From a virus: a stretch of DNA of 21,382 bases. The notes below the pieces were generated by a model. The model searched no databases. It saw only the letters and a list, made by a program, of their open reading frames with translations, and was not told the DNA's origin. The first letter of the stretch is position 1; the number at the start of each line of letters is the position of its first letter. The translations under genes and the position numbers were made by a program. Shown one piece after another: positions 2-21,157 of this stretch. Location: positions 1 to 21,382 of the IMG/VR virus record IMGVR_UViG_3300025127_000340; one strand, written 5' to 3'.

Positions 2-202
2 GGGGATGCCTATGAAAATCATGAAAGAGTTGCTACTATGTGGTCAGCAATATTAGGTATTAAAGTTTCTGTAAGAATGGTGTATCTTTGTTTATTGGCC
101 TTGAAGATTTCACGTTTAGTGAAAACACCGCATCATACAGATTCATGGGTCGATATCTGTGGATATGGCGCACTTGGAGCAGAAGAGAAAGATGATAAGT
201 AG
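2..202 (+). CDS. DUF6378-like protein, 3' part only
   Basis: This is the C-terminal 66 residues of a protein that begins before the window. The open frame runs in phase from base 2 to the TAG at 200-202. The visible part contains ENHERVATMWSAILGI, then ALKISRLVKTPHHTDSWVDI and CGYGAL. This matches my memory of the DUF6378 family found in many phages, which has a conserved 'K-x-x-R' helix followed by 'D-S-x-x-D-I-x-G-Y'. That family has no established function; a nucleotide-pool or MazG-like helical role has been suggested by fold-type reasoning only. The stop lies inside the next gene, which starts at 192 (11-bp overlap), so the two are probably translationally coupled. The A+T-rich codon use is like its neighbours. 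Identity is fairly secure from the motif; function is unknown. Confidence 0.75.
   Translation, partial: GDAYENHERVATMWSAILGIKVSVRMVYLCLLALKISRLVKTPHHTDSWVDICGYGALGAEEKDDK
176..191 (+). promoter_or_regulatory. Purine-rich ribosome binding region deciding the start at 192
   Basis: A GGAG at 176-179 is followed by AGAAGAGAAAG at 181-191, directly before the ATG at 192. In-frame starts further upstream (GTG at 159, ATG at 165) lie deep inside the preceding gene and lack such a sequence. A later ATG at 231 would start just before the PP-loop and is a weaker alternative. Confidence 0.45.
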
Positions 203-1025
203 TTATTTCAAACCACATCCTAATCCAACAATGAGGGTCATAAGCTTAGGCGCAGGTGTGCAATCTTCTGTCATGGCACTGATGGCAGAACGTGGAGAGA
301 TAACACCCAAGCCAGACTGTGCAGTATTTGCTGATACACAAGCAGAACCCGATGAGGTTTACACACATCTTGAGTGGCTATCTTCACAACTATCTTATCC
401 AATATATCAAACAACTGCGGGAGACTTACGTAAAAGTATAACAGAAGGCATAAATATCAGAGGCACAAACAGAGATTATTGTGTAGTGCCTTTTCATGTC
501 AAAGATGGTTTTGGACGTAGACAATGTACAACACAGTTTAAAATAGAACCGATACAGAAAAAGTTTAGAGAATTACTTGGTGTAAAGAAAAATCACAAAG
601 TTAAACCAGGAGTTATACTTGAACAATGGATAGGTATAAGTCAAGACGAACTACAACGTGTTAAAGAATCTAGAGACAAGTGGTTATATAATCGATGGCC
701 ACTATTAGAACTAGGCATGAAAAGATATGATTGTCAGAATTGGTTTGCTAAACACTACCCAGAAAAATATCTACCACGATCTGCTTGCACCTTTTGTCCA
801 TACAAAAATAACAATGAATGGCGACACTTAAGAGACAATGATCCTAAAGGTTGGGAAGATGCGGTGGCCGTGGATAAAAAGATAAGAACTACTGGCACAG
901 ATAAAGGACGTGAGCAATTTGTGCACAGATCCTTAAAGCCATTAGATCAAGCTGACTTACAAACAATGGAAGAGAAAGGGCAACTATCATTCTTAGATGA
1001 GTGTGATGGTATGTGTGGTATGTAA
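192..1025 (+). CDS. PP-loop ATPase of the PAPS reductase-like family
   Basis: A 277-aa protein of the adenine nucleotide alpha-hydrolase superfamily, whose members activate a substrate with ATP or handle adenylyl-sulfate. The P-loop-like motif SLGAGVQSSVMALMAE lies at about residues 17-32 and is followed by FADTQAEPDEVY. Further family marks are RRQCTTQFKIEPI at about 115-127, a cysteine pair in SACTFCPYKNN (about 196-206), and a C-terminal tail with two more cysteines, DECDGMCGM. These cysteines could bind a metal or an Fe-S cluster, which is inference. I do not assign assimilatory PAPS reduction, because phage members of this group are usually uncharacterised. Roles in nucleic-acid thiolation or another ATP-dependent modification are equally possible. 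The gene overlaps the DUF6378-like gene by 11 bp and the polymerase start by 1 bp, which suggests work during replication. Confidence 0.85.
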   Translation: MISSYFKPHPNPTMRVISLGAGVQSSVMALMAERGEITPKPDCAVFADTQAEPDEVYTHLEWLSSQLSYPIYQTTAGDLRKSITEGINIRGTNRDYCVVPFHVKDGFGRRQCTTQFKIEPIQKKFRELLGVKKNHKVKPGVILEQWIGISQDELQRVKESRDKWLYNRWPLLELGMKRYDCQNWFAKHYPEKYLPRSACTFCPYKNNNEWRHLRDNDPKGWEDAVAVDKKIRTTGTDKGREQFVHRSLKPLDQADLQTMEEKGQLSFLDECDGMCGM

Positions 1026-2914
1026 TGAAAGATAAAAACACAATAAGTTTCTTAGAACGTATGGAGATGAATACGTTAGAAAAAGAATGGACAGTGCCTC
1101 AATCCTTTCCAGACCTTACTAACTCTAAATATATAGCAATCGACTTAGAAACATGTGATCCAAACTTAATTGAACTTGGCCCAGGATGGACACGTAATGA
1201 TGGGTTTATTGTGGGAGTAGCTATCGCAGCGGGGGATTTCGTGGGATATTATCCCTTTCGGCACCAAGGTGGTGGCAATATACCAGAGCAAAAAGTATTT
1301 TCATGGCTTAGAAAACAGATGGATACACCACACATACCTAAAATTATGCACAATGCAATGTACGATGCGGGATGGCTTAAGTGGGCAAATGTGGATGTAA
1401 AGGGCAAGATTATTGATACAATGATTGCTGCTCCACTTATTAATGAGAACAGATTTAGTTTTGCACTTAATGCTTTGGGTCGTGATTATCTTGGCGAGCG
1501 CAAGGATGAAAAGGTACTAAAGTCAGCAGCTAAGGACTTTGGATTAGATCCTAAAAAAGAACTATGGAAACTACCCTCACAATTTGTAGGGACCTATGCA
1601 GAACAAGATGCGGCTTTGACTCTTAGATTATGGAATCACTTTGAGCCACTGATAAATAAAGAAGAGTTATCAAGTATATTTGAACTAGAAACAAGTCTCA
1701 TACCTTGTGTGTTCGAGATGAGAAGTAAAGGTGTGCGTGTAGATTTAGATAAGGCAGAGCAAACTAAAACTAAATTACTTACAATGAAGAAACAAATACT
1801 CAAAGAAATAAAAGATGATACCAACATAGATGTAGAACCATGGGTGGCAACAAGTGTAGCCAAAGTATTTGACTATCATAATATTCATTACGATGAGACG
1901 GGTGTAAGCAAACAAGCATCCTTTACAAAAGCTTGGTTGCAAAACTGTCCACATCCCATAGCAGCTAAGGTATTAAGACTCCGTGAATTAGACAAGGCGC
2001 ACAATACATTTATCGATAGTATATTGAAGCATAGTTACAAGGGTCGAATACATTGTGAGTTGCATCAACTTCGTAACGATGATGGTGGTACAGTGACGGG
2101 TAGATTCAGTTCTTCTAATCCTAATCTTCAGCAAATACCATCAAGAGATCCAGAGATTAAGCAAATGATTCGAGGTCTATTTATACCTGAAGAAGGCGAG
2201 AAGTGGGGTAGCTTTGACTATAGTAGCCAAGAGCCAAGGTTATTGGTTCACTATTGTGGAGTCGTAAACAAAGGTAATCCTACTGTGGATAACATTATAG
2301 AACAGTATCAACAAGATGATGTTGATTTTCATCAGATGGTTGCAGATATGGCAAACATATCAAGAAAAGAGGCTAAGACAGTTAATCTTGGTATTATGTA
2401 TGGTATGGGCAAACAAAAACTTGCCAACACTTTAGATATTAAATTAGAAGATGCCAATGAGTTATTAGATACTTACCATCGTAGGGTTCCGTTTGTTAAA
2501 CAACTTGCAGATCAAGTAATGTCACGTGCACAAAAGATGGGTAGGGTACGAACTGTGTTAGGCAGATCATGTAGGTTTGATATGTGGGAGCCAAAGACAT
2601 TTGGTTATAATCAACCCTTAAAGTTTGAAGAAGCTGAAAAGAAATATGGCCCAGGTATTAGACGAGCTTTTACGTATAAGGCATTGAATAGATTGATACA
2701 AGGCAGTGCAGCAGATCAAACAAAAAAAGCTATGGTTGATTGTTACAATGAAGGTTTAGTACCTTTGCTTACAGTGCATGACGAACTTTGCTTTAGTATA
2801 AGTTCACAAGAACAAGCAGACAAGATTACTGAAATCATGGAACAAGGTCTTGAGTTAAATGTGCCTAGTAAAGTTGACCAGGAGTTAGGTAATGATTGGG
2901 GCGAAGTCGGTTAA
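1025..2914 (+). CDS. polA: DNA polymerase I-like, family A, with 3'-5' exonuclease domain
   Basis: The replicative polymerase of the phage, 629 aa. The N-terminal proofreading domain has all three exonuclease motifs: IDLET with D40 and E42, HNAMYDAGW with D114, and YAEQDAALTL with Y191 and D195. No 5'-3' nuclease domain is present, as is usual for phage members. The polymerase domain shows motif A FDYSSQEPRLL (D398, E403), motif B RKEAKTVNLGIMYG (K451, L455, Y459) and motif C TVHDELCF (H585, D586, E587), so both metal-binding aspartates are intact. Position 455 corresponds to Phe762 of E. coli Pol I and is Leu here. I chose the ATG at 1025, which overlaps the preceding TAA (TAATG). A GTG at 1013 or the ATGs at 1061 and 1070 are alternatives. 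The 3' end overlaps the lysozyme gene on the other strand by 4 bp. Confidence 0.95.
   Translation: MKDKNTISFLERMEMNTLEKEWTVPQSFPDLTNSKYIAIDLETCDPNLIELGPGWTRNDGFIVGVAIAAGDFVGYYPFRHQGGGNIPEQKVFSWLRKQMDTPHIPKIMHNAMYDAGWLKWANVDVKGKIIDTMIAAPLINENRFSFALNALGRDYLGERKDEKVLKSAAKDFGLDPKKELWKLPSQFVGTYAEQDAALTLRLWNHFEPLINKEELSSIFELETSLIPCVFEMRSKGVRVDLDKAEQTKTKLLTMKKQILKEIKDDTNIDVEPWVATSVAKVFDYHNIHYDETGVSKQASFTKAWLQNCPHPIAAKVLRLRELDKAHNTFIDSILKHSYKGRIHCELHQLRNDDGGTVTGRFSSSNPNLQQIPSRDPEIKQMIRGLFIPEEGEKWGSFDYSSQEPRLLVHYCGVVNKGNPTVDNIIEQYQQDDVDFHQMVADMANISRKEAKTVNLGIMYGMGKQKLANTLDIKLEDANELLDTYHRRVPFVKQLADQVMSRAQKMGRVRTVLGRSCRFDMWEPKTFGYNQPLKFEEAEKKYGPGIRRAFTYKALNRLIQGSAADQTKKAMVDCYNEGLVPLLTVHDELCFSISSQEQADKITEIMEQGLELNVPSKVDQELGNDWGEVG
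2911..2914. other. Shared TTAA: overlapping stop codons of convergent genes
   Basis: The polymerase gene ends with TAA at 2912-2914 on the plus strand. The lysozyme gene ends with TAA read from 2913 to 2911 on the minus strand. Both stops sit in the same 4-base palindrome, so the two transcription units meet with no spacer. No hairpin with a T-tract is visible close to the junction on either side. Confidence 0.9.
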
Positions 2915-3357
2915 GTAGATATGTTTTCCATACGATTAACTAACCTTTCTGCACGTTTAGTTACTTGATCATACCATTTGGAATTACGCATCTCAGATGC
3001 AGCGGATTTCCAGTCACCTTTGTTAACATTCTCACGCATGCGAACAAATTTAGATAAACGAGGCCGCCCAAGATTAAACATCATATTAGCGATAATTAGT
3101 TGTGCTTCTTCTGGTAGATCATCAAAGTTATCATACAATACTTTGCACTCATCTAATGTTACTTGTATGTCCTTATCAAACAAATTGTTAACACGTTCTT
3201 CTGATACTGGTGTGCCAACTGGCTTACCATATTCTTCGTCCCACTCATTGATAAGGTGGCCTATACCTGTCGTAGGTAAATTTAAATGATCGAGGTACAC
3301 GGAATAAACACATCCCTCATCTCTTTTTAGTTCTTCTCTAAGTTGTTCTATGTTCAT
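2911..3357 (-). CDS. T4-type lysozyme (endolysin, GH24)
   Basis: A 148-aa muramidase that cleaves the beta-1,4 bond between N-acetylmuramic acid and N-acetylglucosamine in peptidoglycan. The N-terminus aligns closely with T4 lysozyme: LKRDEG carries E14 (T4 Glu11), YLDH carries D23 (Asp20), and T29 in LPTTGIGHL matches Thr26, with the same spacing. The downstream part has the usual helical lobe (IIANMMFNLG, WYDQVTKRAERLVNRM). Length is close to T4 lysozyme (164 aa) but slightly shorter. No signal peptide or N-terminal membrane anchor is visible, so it should be cytoplasmic and need a holin, or act from the virion. No holin gene is recognisable in this window. The start ATG overlaps the stop of the large gene before it (ATGA, 3354-3357), so its translation is likely coupled to a virion protein. 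Confidence 0.92.
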   Translation of the reverse strand: MNIEQLREELKRDEGCVYSVYLDHLNLPTTGIGHLINEWDEEYGKPVGTPVSEERVNNLFDKDIQVTLDECKVLYDNFDDLPEEAQLIIANMMFNLGRPRLSKFVRMRENVNKGDWKSAASEMRNSKWYDQVTKRAERLVNRMENIST

Positions 3358-12468: not shown

Positions 12469-13378
12469 ATAACTCTGCATCTGCTGTAAACCCACATTTT
12501 GTAGCATTACTTGAACTTGTTTGTGGAGTGTGCATAGTAAAAACAGTTGGTAATGCTTGTATATTTGCACCATCTGTAAAGTTACCTTCGCCTGAAACTA
12601 TATATCTACCTGAACCAGTATCTACGTCTGTTTTTGTTTGTACAGTAGGAGATGCTCTCATAGTGGTTGCAAAAGGTATCATTAGTGGTCGTGGTGCTCT
12701 GCCAAAACTCACATCTCCTGATGCTATAGAACTGCCAGGATTGCTTTGTGTATAATATCTAAGACACAAAGATAAACTTTCAGCACGACTTAAATGCTCA
12801 AAGGGAGTTGCCACAGAACCTTCTTGTAATTGTACTCCTGTAACTGCCATAGTAAATGTGCTTGATCCTGAACATAAAATATTAAGTGCAAGACCATTCA
12901 ACCCTGCTGCTGGCACAGTCCATGATGCTGTGTATTTAACATAATCAGATGTGAGTGTTCCTAAATTTTGTTCTTGTATTGTTGTAGTTGAACTAAAATC
13001 ATCTGCACTATCTGCCGTTTGTAAACTGGTAAATAGAGTTGTAGCATTAGATACATTTTTAGCAAAAAAGCTAACTGTAACAACTTTACCTGATAAATGC
13101 TGTACGTTTTTACTTTCAATCCTTTGACTAATTATAGGATTACCTGATGTAGCACTAACAGTTATAGCAGTTGGAAACTCTGTAGGCGTACCACTTGTTA
13201 TAACAGCAGACGCACTACAACCTGATAATGTAAATCTATCAACAAAATATCCTGATGTAACTGATGAAGCTCCTCTTTGTTTTATAGCCATATCTCCATT
13301 GATTATCAAATTTGTGCGACCTTTACTGCTATTAGTTAGGATTTCACCCATCTTTGCTAATTCTGCTGCTTTGGTCAT
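12467..13378 (-). CDS. Tail fibre-type protein with carbohydrate-binding-like domain
   Basis: A 303-aa protein, probably a receptor-binding or fibre component. Residues 23-36 read NLIINGDMAIKQRG and are followed by YFVDRF (44-49), a common opening of a phage tail domain with a galactose-binding/CBM-like jelly roll. The jelly roll continues through VVTVSFFAKN (about 99-108), KYTASWTVPAAGLNG and MAVTGVQLQEGSVATPFE (about 177-194), the last being the typical closing strand of such modules. After RYYTQS (207-212) a separate C-terminal region with PFATTMRASPTVQ may form the trimer tip. It starts 4 bp inside the preceding S74 fibre gene (ATGA, 13375-13378) with GGAG upstream. Which sugar or receptor it binds cannot be said. 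Confidence 0.75.
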   Translation of the reverse strand: MTKAAELAKMGEILTNSSKGRTNLIINGDMAIKQRGASSVTSGYFVDRFTLSGCSASAVITSGTPTEFPTAITVSATSGNPIISQRIESKNVQHLSGKVVTVSFFAKNVSNATTLFTSLQTADSADDFSSTTTIQEQNLGTLTSDYVKYTASWTVPAAGLNGLALNILCSGSSTFTMAVTGVQLQEGSVATPFEHLSRAESLSLCLRYYTQSNPGSSIASGDVSFGRAPRPLMIPFATTMRASPTVQTKTDVDTGSGRYIVSGEGNFTDGANIQALPTVFTMHTPQTSSSNATKCGFTADAEL

Positions 13379-14487
13379 TCTGCGTTCTCCAATGCTGTAA
13401 TTCTAGCTTCTAATTCTTGTATGGTTTTTACAAGTAATGGTACGAGTTTGCTTTGGTCTATGCCTTGTGGTTTAATTCTAGTTTGCTCATTACCATCATC
13501 ATCAGTATATGTTTCAGTTGCATCTTTTTCACCAGTTATTGCTTCAGGTACAATGCTTGAAACTTCATGAGCAATAAAACCATCTACTGTAGTATCGGCA
13601 TCTACAATAAAATTAAATCTACAAGGTTTTAATTGTTTTAATCTTGTTGTAGCATCAAAATCGTAGTTTAAGTTTTCTTTCAGTCTGTAATCTGAAGATG
13701 TATTAAATGCAGTTGCACTTCCACTTGTTTTTATACTACCTCTCTCAGCACCACCACTATCTTTGAATTGTATCATTGTTGCAGTTTGTGAACTTTGAGC
13801 ATAGGTATGTTGAAGTGTAACTAAATTTTTATCAGCATTTTCAGAGTGTGTTACTTTCAAGGCATGAGATGCACTTGAAGTTTGAATATCTACTACACCA
13901 GAAGGTGAGGTTGTACCCATACCAACAAAACCACCTTGCGACATATCAATATGCACTGGTGTTATTTCGCTACCACCATCATTACCTTTAATTTGTATGT
14001 CTTGGTCTTGTATAGGATTTTTAATTACAAGATAACTTGAAGAATTAGTTAACTCACCAAAAACAGTTCCATTGTCAGCTAATTTTATATCTGCTCCATT
14101 TGCATCAAGAGTAAGGTCACCTTCAACATCTATTGTTAAATCACCACTATCAGTAATATTACCACCAAAACTAACAGCACCATCAAACGTACCACCATCT
14201 GCTTTGCTTACAGTGTCTGCTACTGAAAATACGTCAAATGCTACGACCACTACGAGGTCATCTACCGATGCAGCTTGTGCTAGTACGATTGATGTACCAC
14301 TTGTTGATGTATAGTCTGCGTCACCTAACTTGATACCATTTTGGTATACATCTACGAAGTTACTGTCTTTGTAGCTTAAAGATGTACCCTCTGCACCTGC
14401 ACCACTGAATGTGGTCTGCGATGCTGTGGCAGTGTAGGTGTGAACCCTACGCACTCCGTTAGATGGACTGACTCCTATGTATGCCAT
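13375..14487 (-). CDS. Tail fibre with C-terminal peptidase S74 self-cleaving chaperone
   Basis: A 370-aa fibre protein in three parts. Residues 1-90 form an N-terminal module (MAYIG, TTFSG, VDVYQNGIKL) that is also present in the fibre at 15290-16183 and is probably the virion anchor. Residues about 100-240 are repetitive beta-strands with GDLTIDVEGDLTLD and GMGTTSP. The C-terminal part begins with SSDYRLKENL. By comparison with endosialidase, S265 and K270 are the Ser-Lys dyad, with cleavage just before S265 releasing about 106 residues after the trimer has folded. VDGFIAHEVS and a terminal coiled coil (LVKTIQELEARITALENA) complete the S74 domain. The mature fibre would therefore be about 264 residues. 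The gene has a GGGG sequence before its ATG and sits 3 bp after the preceding gene. Confidence 0.88.
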   Translation of the reverse strand: MAYIGVSPSNGVRRVHTYTATASQTTFSGAGAEGTSLSYKDSNFVDVYQNGIKLGDADYTSTSGTSIVLAQAASVDDLVVVVAFDVFSVADTVSKADGGTFDGAVSFGGNITDSGDLTIDVEGDLTLDANGADIKLADNGTVFGELTNSSSYLVIKNPIQDQDIQIKGNDGGSEITPVHIDMSQGGFVGMGTTSPSGVVDIQTSSASHALKVTHSENADKNLVTLQHTYAQSSQTATMIQFKDSGGAERGSIKTSGSATAFNTSSDYRLKENLNYDFDATTRLKQLKPCRFNFIVDADTTVDGFIAHEVSSIVPEAITGEKDATETYTDDDGNEQTRIKPQGIDQSKLVPLLVKTIQELEARITALENAE

Positions 14488-15289: not shown

Positions 15290-16183
15290 CTATACTCCTG
15301 CTAACTTATATGCACCAAAGAAGCTTAAATCACCACGAGACGTAGTTGCATCTACATCTGGTGTCGCAGTAATGTCATCTATATAAACAAATACTTCATA
15401 ATAATCAGTGGTGTTAGCTACATCTGTTACTGACAAACTTATAGTATGTTGATTTGTGTAATTATTTGATGGATTAATTCTTGAAGCATAAAATTTTGCA
15501 CCATTTTTCTTTATAAATATAAAAGTATCTACAAGTTGGGAATTATCCTGACCTAACATATGAACTTGTGTGTAAAGAAAATACGTTCCTGCCACTTCGG
15601 GTGTAAATCTATAATTTGTTGAATGGTCATATTTACCATCTGTATCATATACTTCTGTGTCAAATACAACTTTTGTATCTGATGCATCAGGAATATCTTG
15701 GTCTGCTGACATTTTTGCTAAAAACGCAGGTGTATTAGTTAATCTTTTGTCTAAAAGAGTTGGTGTTTGAGTAAAATTTACAACCCCACCACTTGATATT
15801 GCCATTGCATCTGTATCACTTGTACTACCAATGTTACCTGCATTAGGTATAATCACGTTACCTGTAAATGTACCGCTAGTTGCAGTCAAAGCATTATTAC
15901 TCGGATGGCTTACTGTGCCCACTGTTCTAAACAAGTAATACACAAAGATGTTGTTACCTGAGTTACTTGATGGTGCAGTAGTAAATGTAAGTGTAGTTCC
16001 ACTGCTTACTGCGTATGCTACAGATGGTTCTTGTATTACACCATCTACAGATACAAGTATATCCTCATCAGAACCTACTGAGTGCTCTAAAGTAAATGCA
16101 ACAGTAGAACCATCACCAGAAAACTGCGTGGCTGCTTTTGCTGCTACAAATCTATCTGCTGAGGTATTACCTATGTATGGCAT
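15290..16183 (-). CDS. Tail fibre with C1q/TNF-like C-terminal domain
   Basis: A 297-aa fibre protein. Residues 1-90 (MPYIGNTSADRF, QFSGDGSTVAFTLEHSVG, VSVDGVIQEP, FVYYLFRTVG) form an anchor-like module similar in order and motifs to that of the S74 fibre at 13375-14487. A short strand-rich spacer follows (FTGNVIIPNAGNIG). From about residue 151 the pattern is C1q-like: TPAFLAKMSADQ, VVFDTEVYDTDGKYD, RFTPEVAGTYFLYTQVHM, and a final FFGAYKLA. C1q-like domains form compact trimers and are used as binding heads by several phages. The target is unknown. GGAG lies about 10 bases before the ATG. The preceding gene ends 1 bp upstream. Confidence 0.82.
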   Translation of the reverse strand: MPYIGNTSADRFVAAKAATQFSGDGSTVAFTLEHSVGSDEDILVSVDGVIQEPSVAYAVSSGTTLTFTTAPSSNSGNNIFVYYLFRTVGTVSHPSNNALTATSGTFTGNVIIPNAGNIGSTSDTDAMAISSGGVVNFTQTPTLLDKRLTNTPAFLAKMSADQDIPDASDTKVVFDTEVYDTDGKYDHSTNYRFTPEVAGTYFLYTQVHMLGQDNSQLVDTFIFIKKNGAKFYASRINPSNNYTNQHTISLSVTDVANTTDYYEVFVYIDDITATPDVDATTSRGDLSFFGAYKLAGV

Positions 16184-16989: not shown

Positions 16990-17502
16990 CTATCCTAAAG
17001 CTATGGCCAAACTTGTGGCCTCTGCCGCTATCGCAGCATTGTTTGTTAGTTGTATTGAGTCACCAACACTAGTGACTGCTGCTCCAGATCCAGCACCATC
17101 ACAAAAAACAATATCTGTATTACCATTTGCTATGGTCACTGTGCTACCAGAACCTTGTGTAATAATAGCACTTCTTGAACCAGAAAGACTATTTTTAATT
17201 ATAAAAAATCTTGACGAGGTATTTGGAACAATACTTACTGTATTATTGCCACCTAAATCAGAACCACTATCTTTAACATTTACTACAGAAAACATACCAG
17301 TTTGAACATTACTTGAACCAGAAGTTGGTGAATCAAGTCTAATTCTTAAATTAGTTGTTGTATCACTTGCGGTTAAATCACCTAGTGAAACTAGTCTGTC
17401 CACAATATTTAAATTGAAATTTGTAATGTCACCCCAGGTACCAGACTTTTCGCCTGATGCCATTACTTCGACACCTAAATTTGTAGAAAAAGAACTTGCC
17501 AT
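16990..17502 (-). CDS. Conserved tail-type protein ('TNLGVEVMASGEKSGTWGD' start)
   Basis: A 170-aa protein. The N-terminal TNLGVEVMASGEKSGTWGD (about residues 7-25) with following NIVDRLVSL is very common at the start of marine phage fibre and tail proteins, usually as 'x-N-L-x-L-x-x-x-x-x-G-x-x-S-G-T-W-G'. The remainder is a strand-rich region with TGMFSVVNVKDSG, TVSIVPNTSSRFFII and DIVFCDGAGSGAAV. It may form part of the fibre attachment platform. The start codon overlaps the stop of the repeat protein by 1 bp (TAATG). Function within the tail is not known. Confidence 0.72.
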   Translation of the reverse strand: MASSFSTNLGVEVMASGEKSGTWGDITNFNLNIVDRLVSLGDLTASDTTTNLRIRLDSPTSGSSNVQTGMFSVVNVKDSGSDLGGNNTVSIVPNTSSRFFIIKNSLSGSRSAIITQGSGSTVTIANGNTDIVFCDGAGSGAAVTSVGDSIQLTNNAAIAAEATSLAIALG

Positions 17503-18125
17503 TATGCCGCCTTATTAATCTCAACCCAAGTATCAGTCTGACTTGGAGTTATATTAGTATACTCAGTTGTAGCACCACTTACACTTACATAATTAGGTGT
17601 CTGACTTGGCACCACATCTTGGTATACATTCTCATTTCCAAGACCAGATGTCAATTCAAAACCAGTTACTGCGTATTTTGATTCTATTACAGTAGAACCA
17701 ATAGAACCAGTTGCACTCAGTCCCGTAGGAGTAACTAACGCAGTTCCAACTACTTGCTCATCACCAAAACCTATTGTTCCTACAAGACCAGTTTCAGTTA
17801 CAAGTGCAGATGCACTAACTGTTTCATCACCAGAAACACCAGTTGCGCCTAGTCCAGTAACAGCAAAACTTACATTACAAACAACATTTTCATTGCCTAA
17901 CGCAGTTGTTCCTGCAAGACCAGTTTCAGTTACAAGTGCAGAAGCGGTTACACTCTCATCGCCTAATGCAGTTGTTCCAGCTACTCCCGATACTGGATAT
18001 TCTGAAGCTTGTTGAGCAGTTCCTAAACCAGTGGTTGCTGAAACACCAGTAACTTCTACTGGAAGCGGACTATCCCAAAGACCTTCATCCCAAGTCCCTC
18101 GTCCCCATCCAGTAATTCTAGACAT
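17502..18125 (-). CDS. Repeat protein with seven imperfect ~20-23-aa beta repeats
   Basis: A 207-aa protein. It starts MSRITGWGRGTWDEGLWDSP, an aromatic Trp-Gly segment, and then has seven imperfect repeats between residues 23 and about 168. A typical unit is TGLAGTTALGNENVV, that is T/S-G-l-x-x-T-x-x-l-G-x-x-x-V followed by a variable strand. The C-terminus (DVVPSQTPNYVSVSG, then ITPSQTDTWVEINKAA) has two PSQT motifs and looks like a separate cap. The repeats resemble short beta-arches that could stack into a shaft. No enzymatic motif is present. The gene lies between two tail-type genes with 1-bp overlaps at both ends, so it is most likely a tail or fibre component. I know similar repeat proteins from marine phages only as unnamed open reading frames. 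Confidence 0.72.
   Translation of the reverse strand: MSRITGWGRGTWDEGLWDSPLPVEVTGVSATTGLGTAQQASEYPVSGVAGTTALGDESVTASALVTETGLAGTTALGNENVVCNVSFAVTGLGATGVSGDETVSASALVTETGLVGTIGFGDEQVVGTALVTPTGLSATGSIGSTVIESKYAVTGFELTSGLGNENVYQDVVPSQTPNYVSVSGATTEYTNITPSQTDTWVEINKAA
17622..18059 (-). repeat. Coding repeats of the 207-aa protein
   Basis: Seven protein repeats are encoded here. At DNA level, two 28-base segments (17783-17810 and 17915-17942) are identical and 132 bases apart, which equals 44 codons or two protein repeats. Recent duplication of a two-repeat block is therefore likely. Confidence 0.8.
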
Positions 18126-18580
18126 TAGGCAATCCTAATTATTGCATTACTTCCATTTGCAGTCGGAAACTGAACAGTAAAAGTTCCAGATGTTGATGTT
18201 TTATTACCACCAAAATCAAGTACAGCAACAGCTTTATTACTATCAGAACTATTGTAAATCAAAGCACCTCTTGCAGTAATAGTAGCTGTTGTAAAACTTA
18301 CATCAGTAAAATCAGTAAATGCAGTTGTTCCAGAAGTTGTTGGATCTACTCTTGCTAAAGTTCCTCCTCCAGTGGTGTAAGTGCCACTTGAAGCAACTTC
18401 TCCAGTTGTAACTAGTGCAGTTGTTGTAGCACCTAGTGTTGCAGTTGTAGAAGATTTACCTCCACTACTAATTGCAAAAAGTGCTAATTTAAAAGTATCT
18501 CCACCAGAGTTTTTAAAATTATGTACACCTTCTAACAATTCTTTTTTAAAAGATGTGCACATCGCTTGAGTAATGGCCAT
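18125..18580 (-). CDS. Conserved phage structural-type protein
   Basis: A 151-aa protein with a clear marine phage family pattern. It opens MAITQAMCTSFKKELLEGVH and NFKNSGGDTFKLALFAIS, has GTYTTGGGTLARVD in the middle, and closes ALIYNSSDSNKAVAVLDFGG with TFTVQFPTANGSNAIIRIA. This 'C-T-S-F-K-x-E-L-L' start and 'F-P-x-A-x-x-x-N-A-I-I-R-I-A' end are ones I recall from many uncultured virus genomes near the tail genes. No named function is available. It is beta-rich and of a size suiting a tail or decoration protein. AAGGAG lies just before the ATG at 18580. The next gene starts at its stop (TAATG). Confidence 0.75.
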   Translation of the reverse strand: MAITQAMCTSFKKELLEGVHNFKNSGGDTFKLALFAISSGGKSSTTATLGATTTALVTTGEVASSGTYTTGGGTLARVDPTTSGTTAFTDFTDVSFTTATITARGALIYNSSDSNKAVAVLDFGGNKTSTSGTFTVQFPTANGSNAIIRIA

Positions 18581-18867
18581 TATAATCTCCTTATTAAAGT
18601 TGCTAAATCATTACCACCATTCTTTTCTAGAATATTTACAATACTAGCACGTTCTTCTTTTTTTGCCAATGCAACGTAATCTAAAAGGATTTTTCTAATA
18701 TTTTCTTTATAAGCAAACGCTTGTTGTCTTATTGGCTCTGGTGCGGTGTTAGAAACAATACATATTTTATCCAAAACTATCTGTGCAATTTGTTCATCAG
18801 ATAAACCACCATTATCTGATGTTGATACATTTACATTACCAACTTGTGCAACATTAATATTAAACAT
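18580..18867 (-). CDS. Small helical conserved protein of unknown function
   Basis: A 95-aa protein. It starts MFNINVAQVGNVNVSTSDNG; the VGNVNVSTS part resembles the C-terminal motif of two other small proteins in this window. The rest is helical and charged: LSDEQIAQIVLDKI, APEPIRQQAFAYKENI, DYVALAKKEERASI, and a final DLATLIRRL. It carries no catalytic motif and could be an assembly factor or scaffold-like protein. I chose the ATG at 18867, seven bases after GGAAGG, over the ATG at 18873, which would leave only one base. It overlaps the end of the GT42/MptE-like gene by 8 bp and ends 1 bp inside the next start. Confidence 0.68.
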   Translation of the reverse strand: MFNINVAQVGNVNVSTSDNGGLSDEQIAQIVLDKICIVSNTAPEPIRQQAFAYKENIRKILLDYVALAKKEERASIVNILEKNGGNDLATLIRRL

Positions 18868-19543
18868 GATCATGCCTTCCAAATAAAATGGGTGTTTTAT
18901 CTTGTGGTTCTGGAGAACTTAGTTCAGATTGTCTACTAACTTCAAGAACGCCTTTGTTAATAGTTTGTACCAAAGGATCATCTAATCTGTGATATCCATA
19001 CAATTTTTCTTCATCGGGTACATTTGTATCTAATAAATTTGACCTATGTGCAACTTCAATTTGCATACCTTTATTTATTGCAACCGCAAGCCAAAACTCA
19101 GTGCAAGCTCTACCAGCTTCAGCCATATGTAAGTTATGCATGTAACTATAATCAATACCATATAAATTAATTTTATTAACTTTCTCATGTATTGCCAAGG
19201 CTATGGCATAAGGGACAGTATTATTAAAATAACAAAGTCCAGTATCCTTAACTACATCTGCCAATGGATATTTAACTAAATGTTTCACTCTTTTATCTAA
19301 CTCACACGTATATATAGGTTTTTTGTTATTTTTTAAAAACTCTCTAGCTATTTCAGTTTGTGTGCCTGCGTTCTTTGTATCAAGAAATCTAGATACTGGA
19401 TCCATCATTATTGTTCTATCAACGTGAATAATCCCACCTATAGAATTTATACCCCAGATCTCATCAAACTTTTTAGAGTTCACTCTAGCAGCTATAAAAT
19501 CAGCGTAACTAGCACCCAAACCCACTATAGCTATTTCCGTCAA
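18860..19543 (-). CDS. Rossmann-like protein resembling GT42 sialyltransferases or MptE-like proteins
   Basis: A 227-aa protein. The visible marks are a Gly-rich turn EIAIVGLGASYADF (G8, G10, S12), FDEIWGINS with N33, TIMMDP (D48, P49), PIYTCELDKR, CYFNNTVPYAIALAI (N107-T109), INLYGIDYSY (G129, D131), GRACTEFWLA, and SNLLDT near 168-173, then LYGYHRL. This order (G-x-G-x-S, F-D-x-x-x-x-x-N, x-x-D/N-P, x-G-I-D-Y/F) is like bacterial GT42 sialyltransferases and the MptE/DUF115 group, as I remember them. It may transfer a sugar or bind a nucleotide, but no activity is established, and the usual 'G-N-G' is 'G-L-G' here. It is cytoplasmic, with no signal peptide. It starts with TTG at 19543 overlapping the preceding stop (TTGA), with AGAGG before it. 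Finding it inside a virion gene cluster is notable. Confidence 0.7.
   Translation of the reverse strand: MTEIAIVGLGASYADFIAARVNSKKFDEIWGINSIGGIIHVDRTIMMDPVSRFLDTKNAGTQTEIAREFLKNNKKPIYTCELDKRVKHLVKYPLADVVKDTGLCYFNNTVPYAIALAIHEKVNKINLYGIDYSYMHNLHMAEAGRACTEFWLAVAINKGMQIEVAHRSNLLDTNVPDEEKLYGYHRLDDPLVQTINKGVLEVSRQSELSSPEPQDKTPILFGRHDHV
18875..18880 (-). promoter_or_regulatory. Shine-Dalgarno GGAAGG deciding the start at 18867
   Basis: GGAAGG on the minus strand is one base from the ATG at 18873 but seven bases from the ATG at 18867, favouring the latter. It lies inside the 3' end of the GT42/MptE-like gene. Confidence 0.6.
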
Positions 19544-20184
19544 GTTCTTGGCCTCTCTGGTAGTCCTCTGCGATATGCATCACTATTTTCTCTAGCCTCT
19601 GCTAAGTCTTTAACTCTTGATAAAGATTCTAGAAATCTTTGATTATACAATTGCATAACATCTGGTTCACCTTTCATATAGGTATACGCTTCAATTAAAC
19701 ATCCATATAATAAAGCGTTTGGTGCATTAGTGCTTAACCAGGTAGTACCAGAATCTCCAGAATCTTTTAAACTTGTTGGTCTGTAGTAGTAATGCAGTTC
19801 AACAGAGTAATTATCATCAGGTGTGGGAGATATAAGAAAATTATTTACATCAAATATAGCATAATATTTAGGTCTACCAGTTGATCCATCTGGATTAAAT
19901 TCTTGTAAAAAGTTTACATCTTTTTGTAGTAAAAAATGTTTAGTGCTTGAAGACGTTATAGACAAACTAAATGAAGCTAGATAATCACTTGGCACCGCTA
20001 AAAACTGATTGCTTGATGTCATTGCTCCCGTTACGTTTTTTCTAAAATATTCTAAATCAACTGCTTTAAGTATACGTTCTTCAGCAGATACAATAAAATC
20101 ATCTAAGTGATTAACAAAAGATGTTTCTTGATTTTCACTATAATCTTTAATAGCTGTTTTAAGTGTTGATAGTGTAAAACTCAT
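19540..20184 (-). CDS. Head-tail adaptor-like protein (T7 gp11/P22 gp4 type), second copy
   Basis: A 214-aa protein. The N-terminal part is helical (IVSAEERILKAVDLEYFRKN, about residues 31-50), followed by strands (QFLAVPSDYLASFSLSI, FLLQKDVNFLQEF), then TGRPKYYAIFDVNNFLISPT, PDDNYSVELHYYYRP, a LSTNAPNALLYGCLIEA helix and RFLESLSRVKDLAEARENSD. The 'G-R-P-x-Y-Y ... P-T-P-D ... Y-Y-Y' block also occurs in the 221-aa protein upstream (20492-21157), so the two appear related. Both resemble adaptor or tail tubular A proteins that form a ring below the portal. Which of the two would contact the portal cannot be read. The ATG overlaps the preceding gene's stop by 4 bp (ATGA, 20181-20184). Confidence 0.68.
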   Translation of the reverse strand: MSFTLSTLKTAIKDYSENQETSFVNHLDDFIVSAEERILKAVDLEYFRKNVTGAMTSSNQFLAVPSDYLASFSLSITSSSTKHFLLQKDVNFLQEFNPDGSTGRPKYYAIFDVNNFLISPTPDDNYSVELHYYYRPTSLKDSGDSGTTWLSTNAPNALLYGCLIEAYTYMKGEPDVMQLYNQRFLESLSRVKDLAEARENSDAYRRGLPERPRT

Positions 20185-20492
20185 GACGTACTCACAGTAA
20201 CAGTGCCTAATGCTGATTCTAATTTAAGTTTTTCTTTGAATGAAATAGTTTGTAAATCAAATATTGGAAACTCAACTTTTGCATCTCTAAATTCAACTCT
20301 AGGCTTTGGGTTTCTTAATGCTTGCGGATCTGGACCCACTCGTATTGGATCTAATTGTGGATGTTTAGGTTCATATTCGTCATAACCAACAGTGAGTCCA
20401 TTCCATTCTTTTCTCATGTCTTTTAGTTTATACCTAAATCCAGATCTCTCTGAATAACCAAAGGCTCTTTTGTTACTTGCGTATCTAGCCAT
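20181..20492 (-). CDS. Small conserved virion-type protein with C-terminal LGTVTVSTS
   Basis: A 103-aa basic protein. It contains FGYSERSGFRYKLKDMRKEW, NGLTVGYDEYEPKHPQLDP and DPQALRNPKPRVEF, a pattern ('S-x-R-S-G-F ... E-W-N-G ... K-H-P-Q-L-x-P ... D-P-Q-A-L-R-N') that I recall as highly conserved in marine phages. The C-terminus ALGTVTVSTS is nearly identical to that of the 95-aa protein at 10125-10412. It is probably a small structural or connector protein because it lies between the two adaptor-like genes. GAGGG lies before its ATG. It overlaps the preceding stop by 1 bp and the following start by 4 bp. Function is unknown. Confidence 0.74.
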   Translation of the reverse strand: MARYASNKRAFGYSERSGFRYKLKDMRKEWNGLTVGYDEYEPKHPQLDPIRVGPDPQALRNPKPRVEFRDAKVEFPIFDLQTISFKEKLKLESALGTVTVSTS

Positions 20493-21157
20493 TAAACCCT
20501 CAAGTATTTAATATCTGGTGTAAGTTTAAGAGGCACTCTATCTTCATCCTCATCACTAGCTCTTTGAAATTCTTCTTCGTAAACACTTTTAAGAATTTGT
20601 ATTCTATCTGGTGCTTTTTTCATTGATAAATAATAAGACAAGCCTGCAACTAAACAAGGTAAAAATCTGAATGGTATATCATGCGTGTTTTGCATAGTGT
20701 CTGCATCTTGTATTCTACGCACGTAATAATATATCAAACTATCTGAACTAGAGTCTGGTGTCGGCCATAAAATAACTGCAGGTGTAATTCGTCTATCAAA
20801 ATAATATTGACTTGGTCGTCCAGATTGATCTTTGTTTGGTAAATTTAAATAATCACCTCTGGACATTCTTGATAGTGAAAAATCTGTACCACTTCTTCTT
20901 ATTACAACTTCAAGTAAATCAGCATGATCTGCGGTAAATGTATAAGATGCAGTTCCAGATGTAAGTGCTTGAGTTTTCTGCTCAACAGTCCAAAGATTCA
21001 AACCTCTGTTTGCCCATTCAGAAAACATTATATTCAGAGATCTTCTAGCAGTTCTAAGATCATATCCAGTTTTAACTTCTAAACCACATCTTTCATATGC
21101 TTCTTCTATCGCATCTGATACATCTAATTCAAAATCTCTGGAGTTTGAGGTTGCCAT
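20492..21157 (-). CDS. Head-tail adaptor-like protein (P22 gp4 type)
   Basis: A 221-aa protein. The N-terminal helices (DVSDAIEEAYERCGLEV, TARRSLNIMFSEWANRGLNL) followed by strand segments (GTASYTFTADHADLLEVVIR), SGRPSQYYFDRRITPAVILW, PTPDSSSDSLIYYYVRR and a closing helical part (FLPCLVAGLSYYLSMKKA) match P22 gp4-like head completion/adaptor proteins. These bind the portal and connect it to the tail hub. The 'S-G-R-P-x-x-Y-Y ... P-T-P-D ... Y-Y-Y-x-R' block recurs in the 214-aa neighbour. Length is somewhat above P22 gp4 (166 aa). The C-terminus is acidic in part (RASDEDEDRVP). The start ATG has no strong ribosome binding site. The preceding small gene ends 3 bp upstream, so coupling is likely. 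Confidence 0.75.
   Translation of the reverse strand: MATSNSRDFELDVSDAIEEAYERCGLEVKTGYDLRTARRSLNIMFSEWANRGLNLWTVEQKTQALTSGTASYTFTADHADLLEVVIRRSGTDFSLSRMSRGDYLNLPNKDQSGRPSQYYFDRRITPAVILWPTPDSSSDSLIYYYVRRIQDADTMQNTHDIPFRFLPCLVAGLSYYLSMKKAPDRIQILKSVYEEEFQRASDEDEDRVPLKLTPDIKYLRV

Follow-up and report, generated by a model that had tools for sequence, protein, structure and literature searches.

A protein with a predicted GT42/Maf/MptE-type fold encoded among the neck and tail genes of a marine phage, and its possible role in virion glycosylation

A gene for a protein of 227 aa is found among the neck and tail genes of a marine phage, represented by IMG/VR record IMGVR_UViG_3300025127_000340 (positions 1 to 21,382, the whole stretch of 21,382 nucleotides that was analysed and that is called the window here). 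The question raised by this locus is what kind of protein is encoded at such a place, and whether it could modify the virion. The features around the gene are as follows:

18860..19543, minus strand: the gene under study, 227 aa, TTG start, single domain, predicted fold of the GT42/Maf/MptE/thiamin pyrophosphokinase (TPK) group
19540..20184, minus strand: SU10-type adaptor (Pfam SU10_adaptor PF24175, E 1.3e-27; phrog_2941), directly upstream in 80 of 80 near loci
20181..20492, minus strand: conserved virion-cluster gene, 103 aa (phrog_28581; synteny)
20492..21157, minus strand: second SU10-adaptor-like protein, 221 aa (Pfam PF24175, E 1.1e-12)
18580..18882, minus strand: core gene, 100 aa, with a 23-nt overlap with the end of the 227-aa gene
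18125..18580, minus strand: small virion-cluster protein, 151 aa, Ser/Thr-rich (30.5%) (phrog_644)
17502..18125, minus strand: repetitive Ser/Thr-rich protein, 207 aa
16990..17502, minus strand: protein of 170 aa (phrog_31104)

The two SU10-adaptor-like genes, at 19540-20184 and 20492-21157, lie one gene apart, and both positions are conserved in most relatives. Elsewhere in the window, the genes at 13375-14487 and 15290-16183 (minus strand) encode tail-fibre-type proteins in which an endosialidase-type chaperone domain (S74) and a C1q-like domain were matched, and an ORF that by eye resembles PAPS-reductase-type proteins is located at 159-1025 (plus strand), upstream of a family A DNA polymerase.

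The reading frame at 18860-19543 is a real gene, since relatives are present in at least 586 contig stretches in scans of IMG/VR and its dN/dS against five relatives is about 0.04 (0.02-0.06), which amounts to strong purifying selection and indicates that the gene is maintained. The TTG start is supported by a relative (L010) with ATG at the equivalent position; the adaptor's TGA stop and this TTG overlap in the TTGA at 19540-19543 (minus strand), and such an arrangement suggests that translation of the 227-aa protein may be coupled to that of the adaptor. The protein contains G8-L-G10-A-S12, F26-D27-x5-N33, M46-M-D48-P49, N107-N-T109 and Y128-G-I-D-Y132, with Leu9 at the place where GT42 has Asn9 of the G-N-G turn. 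The original prediction had described all of these motifs, the Asn-to-Leu change, the TTGA overlap and a site between an adaptor-like gene and small tail-type genes, and each of these was found in the sequence, with the SU10-type adaptor upstream and tail-type genes after it.

Searches with the window protein against Pfam, PHROGs and NCBIfam gave no match, and at E 0.001 a set of 63 diverse relatives had no PHROG match either. No relative came up when 84,980 prokaryote genomes were scanned twice, by a method that depends on exact short patterns and misses distant relatives. Among annotated phages, the window protein matches one, the cultured Microcystis phage Mvi-Yong1342-1, in which the relative XAN61349.1 (L082 7695-8498) immediately precedes the terminase genes. 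XAN61349.1 is annotated as a 'type 11 methyltransferase' yet matches the domain of the window-protein family, and the label may derive from fused relatives.

The gene stays in the tail cluster of related genomes, a point that the original prediction had raised: in the nearest contigs it directly follows the SU10-type adaptor in 80 of 80 loci, and the 100-aa gene comes next in nearly all of them, while in the full, partly redundant set of fetched entries it adjoins the adaptor in 279 of 333. One contig of 69,322 bases (G001) has two copies near its ends (61444-62118 and 2477-3175), perhaps through assembly redundancy or true duplication. By its polymerase, the window phage is closest to 023Pt_psg01, DSL-LC04, HTVC023P and HTVC027P (46-54% identity), and the family profile found the gene in none of these four, of which HTVC023P and HTVC027P are cultured. 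Directly after the adaptor, HTVC027P and 023Pt_psg01 have a gene which on reading resembles the 151-aa gene. In DSL-LC04 the adaptor is followed by genes corresponding to those of 100 aa and 151 aa; the 100-aa gene of the window appears, on reading, to be homologous to the 95-aa gene that adjoins the adaptor in DSL-LC04. Because the four polymerase-nearest phages lack it, the family gene is an accessory gene that was gained or lost between the adaptor and the 100-aa gene and afterwards retained there. Two candidates for a functional partner were dropped: the 100-aa gene, which has a counterpart in DSL-LC04 where the 227-aa gene is absent, and a specially Ser/Thr-rich target in carriers, as the neighbour's 30.5% hardly separates from the 25-28% in non-carriers.

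The fold was predicted with AlphaFold2 from a deep alignment of 63 sequences gathered by a motif scan, which gave a model with a pLDDT of 92.8 and a pTM of 0.86. When this model was compared with the PDB by VIA-align, the top match was Maf (5mu5, Z 11.9, rmsd 2.9 over 156 residues), followed by MptE (8sd5, Z 11.2), CstII (Z 10.5; all GT42 entries listed have Z 9.2-10.5), TPK (3lm8, Z 10.3 over 119 residues) and SteA (Z 10.3), which has the same fold and gave no lead on function; mammalian sialyltransferases reached Z 6.6-7.3. All rows with Z of at least 6.6 belong to the GT42/Maf/MptE/TPK fold group, and the first unrelated Rossmann protein stands at 5.6. Foldseek likewise gave CstII as the best match (E 3.2e-5). 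An earlier model from 18 close sequences, made before the motif scan behind the deep alignment, had a pLDDT of only 56; TPK, MptE and GT42 were already top-ranked with it. The window protein is thus predicted, on a well-scored model, to be a small soluble single-domain protein of the GT42/GT29/Maf/MptE/TPK fold group. The resemblance to GT42 and MptE that had been proposed from the sequence is reproduced by the structure comparison, in which Maf, MptE, GT42 and TPK stand far above other folds, and the contrary outcome named in that proposal, a lack of any structural match to GT42 or MptE, did not occur.

Is the protein then a GT42 enzyme? The nine best matches of the family profile in the PDB are all GT42, individually weak (E 0.02-0.26). 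The hhalign score of the family against GT42 is 42.5, compared with at most 19.9 for 30 column-shuffled GT42 controls and 14.0 for the reversed control, and on this profile comparison the resemblance appears to exceed chance, with the qualification that part of the YFN..T/GID segment was a selection criterion in the motif scan, and this may inflate the test. The profile-profile similarity to CstI/CstII is local, covering 33 columns of the YFN..T segment and the GID strand. The Pfam CST-I family (PF06002) matches neither the window protein nor the control genomes. GT42 Asn31 is kept as N33 in 100% of the near clade and 77% of the far clade, equivalence being judged by sequence position. GT42 N9 of the donor site is replaced by Leu9 in the window and elsewhere in the family by S, T, F or W, and N51 by D48 in the near clade and by H48 in most of the far clade. 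In GT42, H188 is the general base and Asn51 binds the acceptor (PMC4202792); in the sequence comparison, no conserved His was found in the stretch before the helix that matches the H188 region. Because His188, N9 and N51 are not kept, the window protein is best regarded as GT42/MptE-like rather than as a member of GT42. Of the original reading, the likeness of fold has stood (Z 10.5 and 11.2), GT42 membership has not, and its caution that the activity may differ is borne out insofar as these three residues are missing. The related Pfam family PF01973 gives no match to the window protein; 12 of 63 relatives match it with E up to 0.5 (best 0.0013), and no member tested reaches its curated cut-off. 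By analogy with GT42, the conserved residues N33, D48, F106, N108-T109, D131, R145 and E149 would lie on the side of the pocket, and position 48 (D or H) and position 185 (H, D or E) are candidates for the catalytic base.

A search with a degenerate DNA pattern, modelled on the window protein and its relative in the Microcystis phage, yielded many further relatives, down to about 25% identity. In this superfamily, W30, P93, Y105, F106, A115, A117, G129, D131, E149, Y182 and G183 are invariant or nearly so, position 145 is R or K, and the tree splits into a D48 clade, which includes the window, and an H48 clade. Fusion to a class I methyltransferase domain occurs in several distant members, and several sit between the major capsid (phrog_10) and head-tail adaptor (phrog_442) genes of other phages, so the link with the head-neck-tail module spans different capsid lineages. 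Beside one distant member (L327 2-1249), genes that on reading resemble radical-SAM and sulfotransferase genes follow the head-tail adaptor.

Of 44 records chosen for diverged family members and searched for ulosonic-acid genes, five carry them: four have a CMP-sugar synthetase (PF02348), three of these also with NeuB, and the fifth has a Kdo-8-P synthase. The fullest case is G006 (IMGVR_UViG_3300033148_003473), which carries a pseudaminate-type pathway inside its head module (operon at L364 5012-8329 and L359 313-8578); the order is terminase, Mu-type portal, family gene, CMP-sugar synthetase, NeuB, PIG-L-like deacetylase, GNAT, PseB (E 4.7e-118), PseC-like aminotransferase, Mu-F protein and capsid E. 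In G044, NeuB and a PseF-like gene lie within 4 kb of the family gene, after a connector-type gene; in G049, the order is PseF-like gene, capsid gene, family gene, methyltransferase; and in G035 the sugar genes are about 12 kb distant. In G028 (L329 1500-3676, minus strand), a Kdo-8-P synthase, matched above the curated cut-off, is directly downstream of a methyltransferase/family fusion that belongs to the D48 clade, and lies between this fusion and a connector-type gene.

Such genes are rare in phages: in 50,697 phage records, the NeuB query from G044 finds two, the PseF query one and the KdsA query 14. With comparable statistics, the same NeuB query on the family records finds G006 and G035 besides G044 itself, and the two NeuB-bearing phage records of the annotated collection have no family-gene match. 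Some of the KdsA matches come from short 'phage' records of Listeria and Staphylococcus that resemble host DNA, and these were excluded from the phage cases; DAHP/KdsA-type matches resembling host DNA occur in the short, unannotated OR84xxxx records (Listeria, Staphylococcus, Enterococcus). Neither the window nor any of ten long contigs from its clade yielded a sugar-nucleotide gene, so the link to a sugar donor depends on distant relatives (about 24-39% identity).

GT42, Maf and the mammalian sialyltransferases are all CMP-sugar enzymes, so gene context and fold agree in direction. We judge it about evenly balanced whether the window protein is a CMP-ulosonate-dependent, Maf-like glycosyltransferase that modifies virion proteins. 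The protein would most likely bind a CMP-activated ulosonic acid and, while neck or tail proteins are being made, attach the sugar to Ser/Thr on their surface, with a timing analogous to that of Maf, which modifies flagellin before assembly. Since the long contigs of the window's clade carry no donor synthesis genes, the donor would probably be taken from a Gram-negative host as CMP-Kdo or CMP-nonulosonate; the single sugar gene seen next to a member of the D48 clade belongs to Kdo synthesis, and this would make Kdo the first candidate. It has been reported that the C. botulinum Maf is able to work with Neu5Ac and Kdo, and that Maf transfers nonulosonic acids onto Ser/Thr of a filament protein under assembly (PMC11339370).

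The same chemistry could instead be directed late in infection at the surface of the host, such as the Kdo part of its LPS, against superinfection or for the freeing of progeny. GT42 enzymes modify lipooligosaccharide, surface sugars include Kdo and nonulosonic acids, and biosynthesis genes are present in several relatives, all of which would suit such a target; the fixation of the gene in head-neck-tail modules of very different phages, where a surface-acting enzyme would have no reason to stay, speaks against it, as does the lack of any membrane anchor seen in the sequence, and we regard this explanation as unlikely. The gene's constant place within the structural module and the absence of the GT42 catalytic residues would fit a virion or assembly protein that has adopted the fold for a non-catalytic purpose, such as a chaperone or a part of the neck. 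Among the most conserved positions, however, many lie in the GT42 donor-pocket loops (T131/S132 loop, Gly-x-Asp) and are retained at 25% identity across capsid types, related functional phages do without the gene, and methyltransferase fusions and sugar genes accompany it, which leaves a purely structural role improbable.

TPK and MptE are diphosphokinases, so a common fold is no proof of common chemistry, and a pyrophosphokinase-like or other nucleotide enzyme with a small-molecule substrate has to be weighed on the same evidence. The Z scores of MptE and TPK (11.2 and 10.3) nearly equal that of Maf, 12 of 63 relatives weakly match the Pfam MptE-like family (best E 0.0013), and Asp48 and Asp131 could bind metal. 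Near the members that were read, however, no pterin or thiamin genes were seen, their neighbours being ulosonic-acid and capsid genes, and the PDB profile search reaches GT42, not MptE or TPK; an enzyme of this type is accordingly a poor prospect.

The virion-glycosylating reading can be put more generally, and then only tentatively, as a proposal somewhat more apt to fail than to hold: tailed phages may glycosylate their virions with ulosonic sugars through a single-domain Maf/GT42-like transferase in the head-neck-tail module, some with their own CMP-nonulosonate/Kdo pathway at that place, and others, the abundant marine relatives of SAR11 podoviruses, with a donor from the host. Were this so, a virion-decorating enzyme that current family libraries have missed would be carried by a common family of marine phages and by many other phages, and phages with the family gene may coat their own particles with sugar. 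To our knowledge, few tailed phages glycosylate their own particles; we know of no report of sialic-acid-type sugars on such particles, nor of any link between mycobacteriophage glycosyltransferases and the fold of the window protein. Searches of open-access papers likewise found neither a description of this family nor one of ulosonic acids being transferred in the virions of tailed phages.

As cited in PMC12619734, mycobacteriophages carry glycans on capsid and tail-tube proteins (Freeman 2023), and the likeness to the reading proposed here is that structural proteins of phages would carry the glycans. MptE (archaeal HPPK, PF01973) and TPK share the fold, whereas the members tested are below the PF01973 cut-off and were read in surroundings free of pterin or thiamin genes. 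GT42 CstI/CstII are alike in fold, in the G-x-G-x-S start, in the N31 position and in YFN...T/S...A.AI...I.L.GID, the only segment found by profile search; they differ at N9 (Leu in the window), N51 (Asp) and H188. The Maf flagellin glycosyltransferase has three domains and about 630 residues and is tied to flagellin, whereas the window protein consists of a single domain of 227 aa, is encoded in a phage module and falls below the PF01973 cut-off; the central domain of Maf (Maf_flag10/PF01973, 5mu5) is nevertheless its best structural match.
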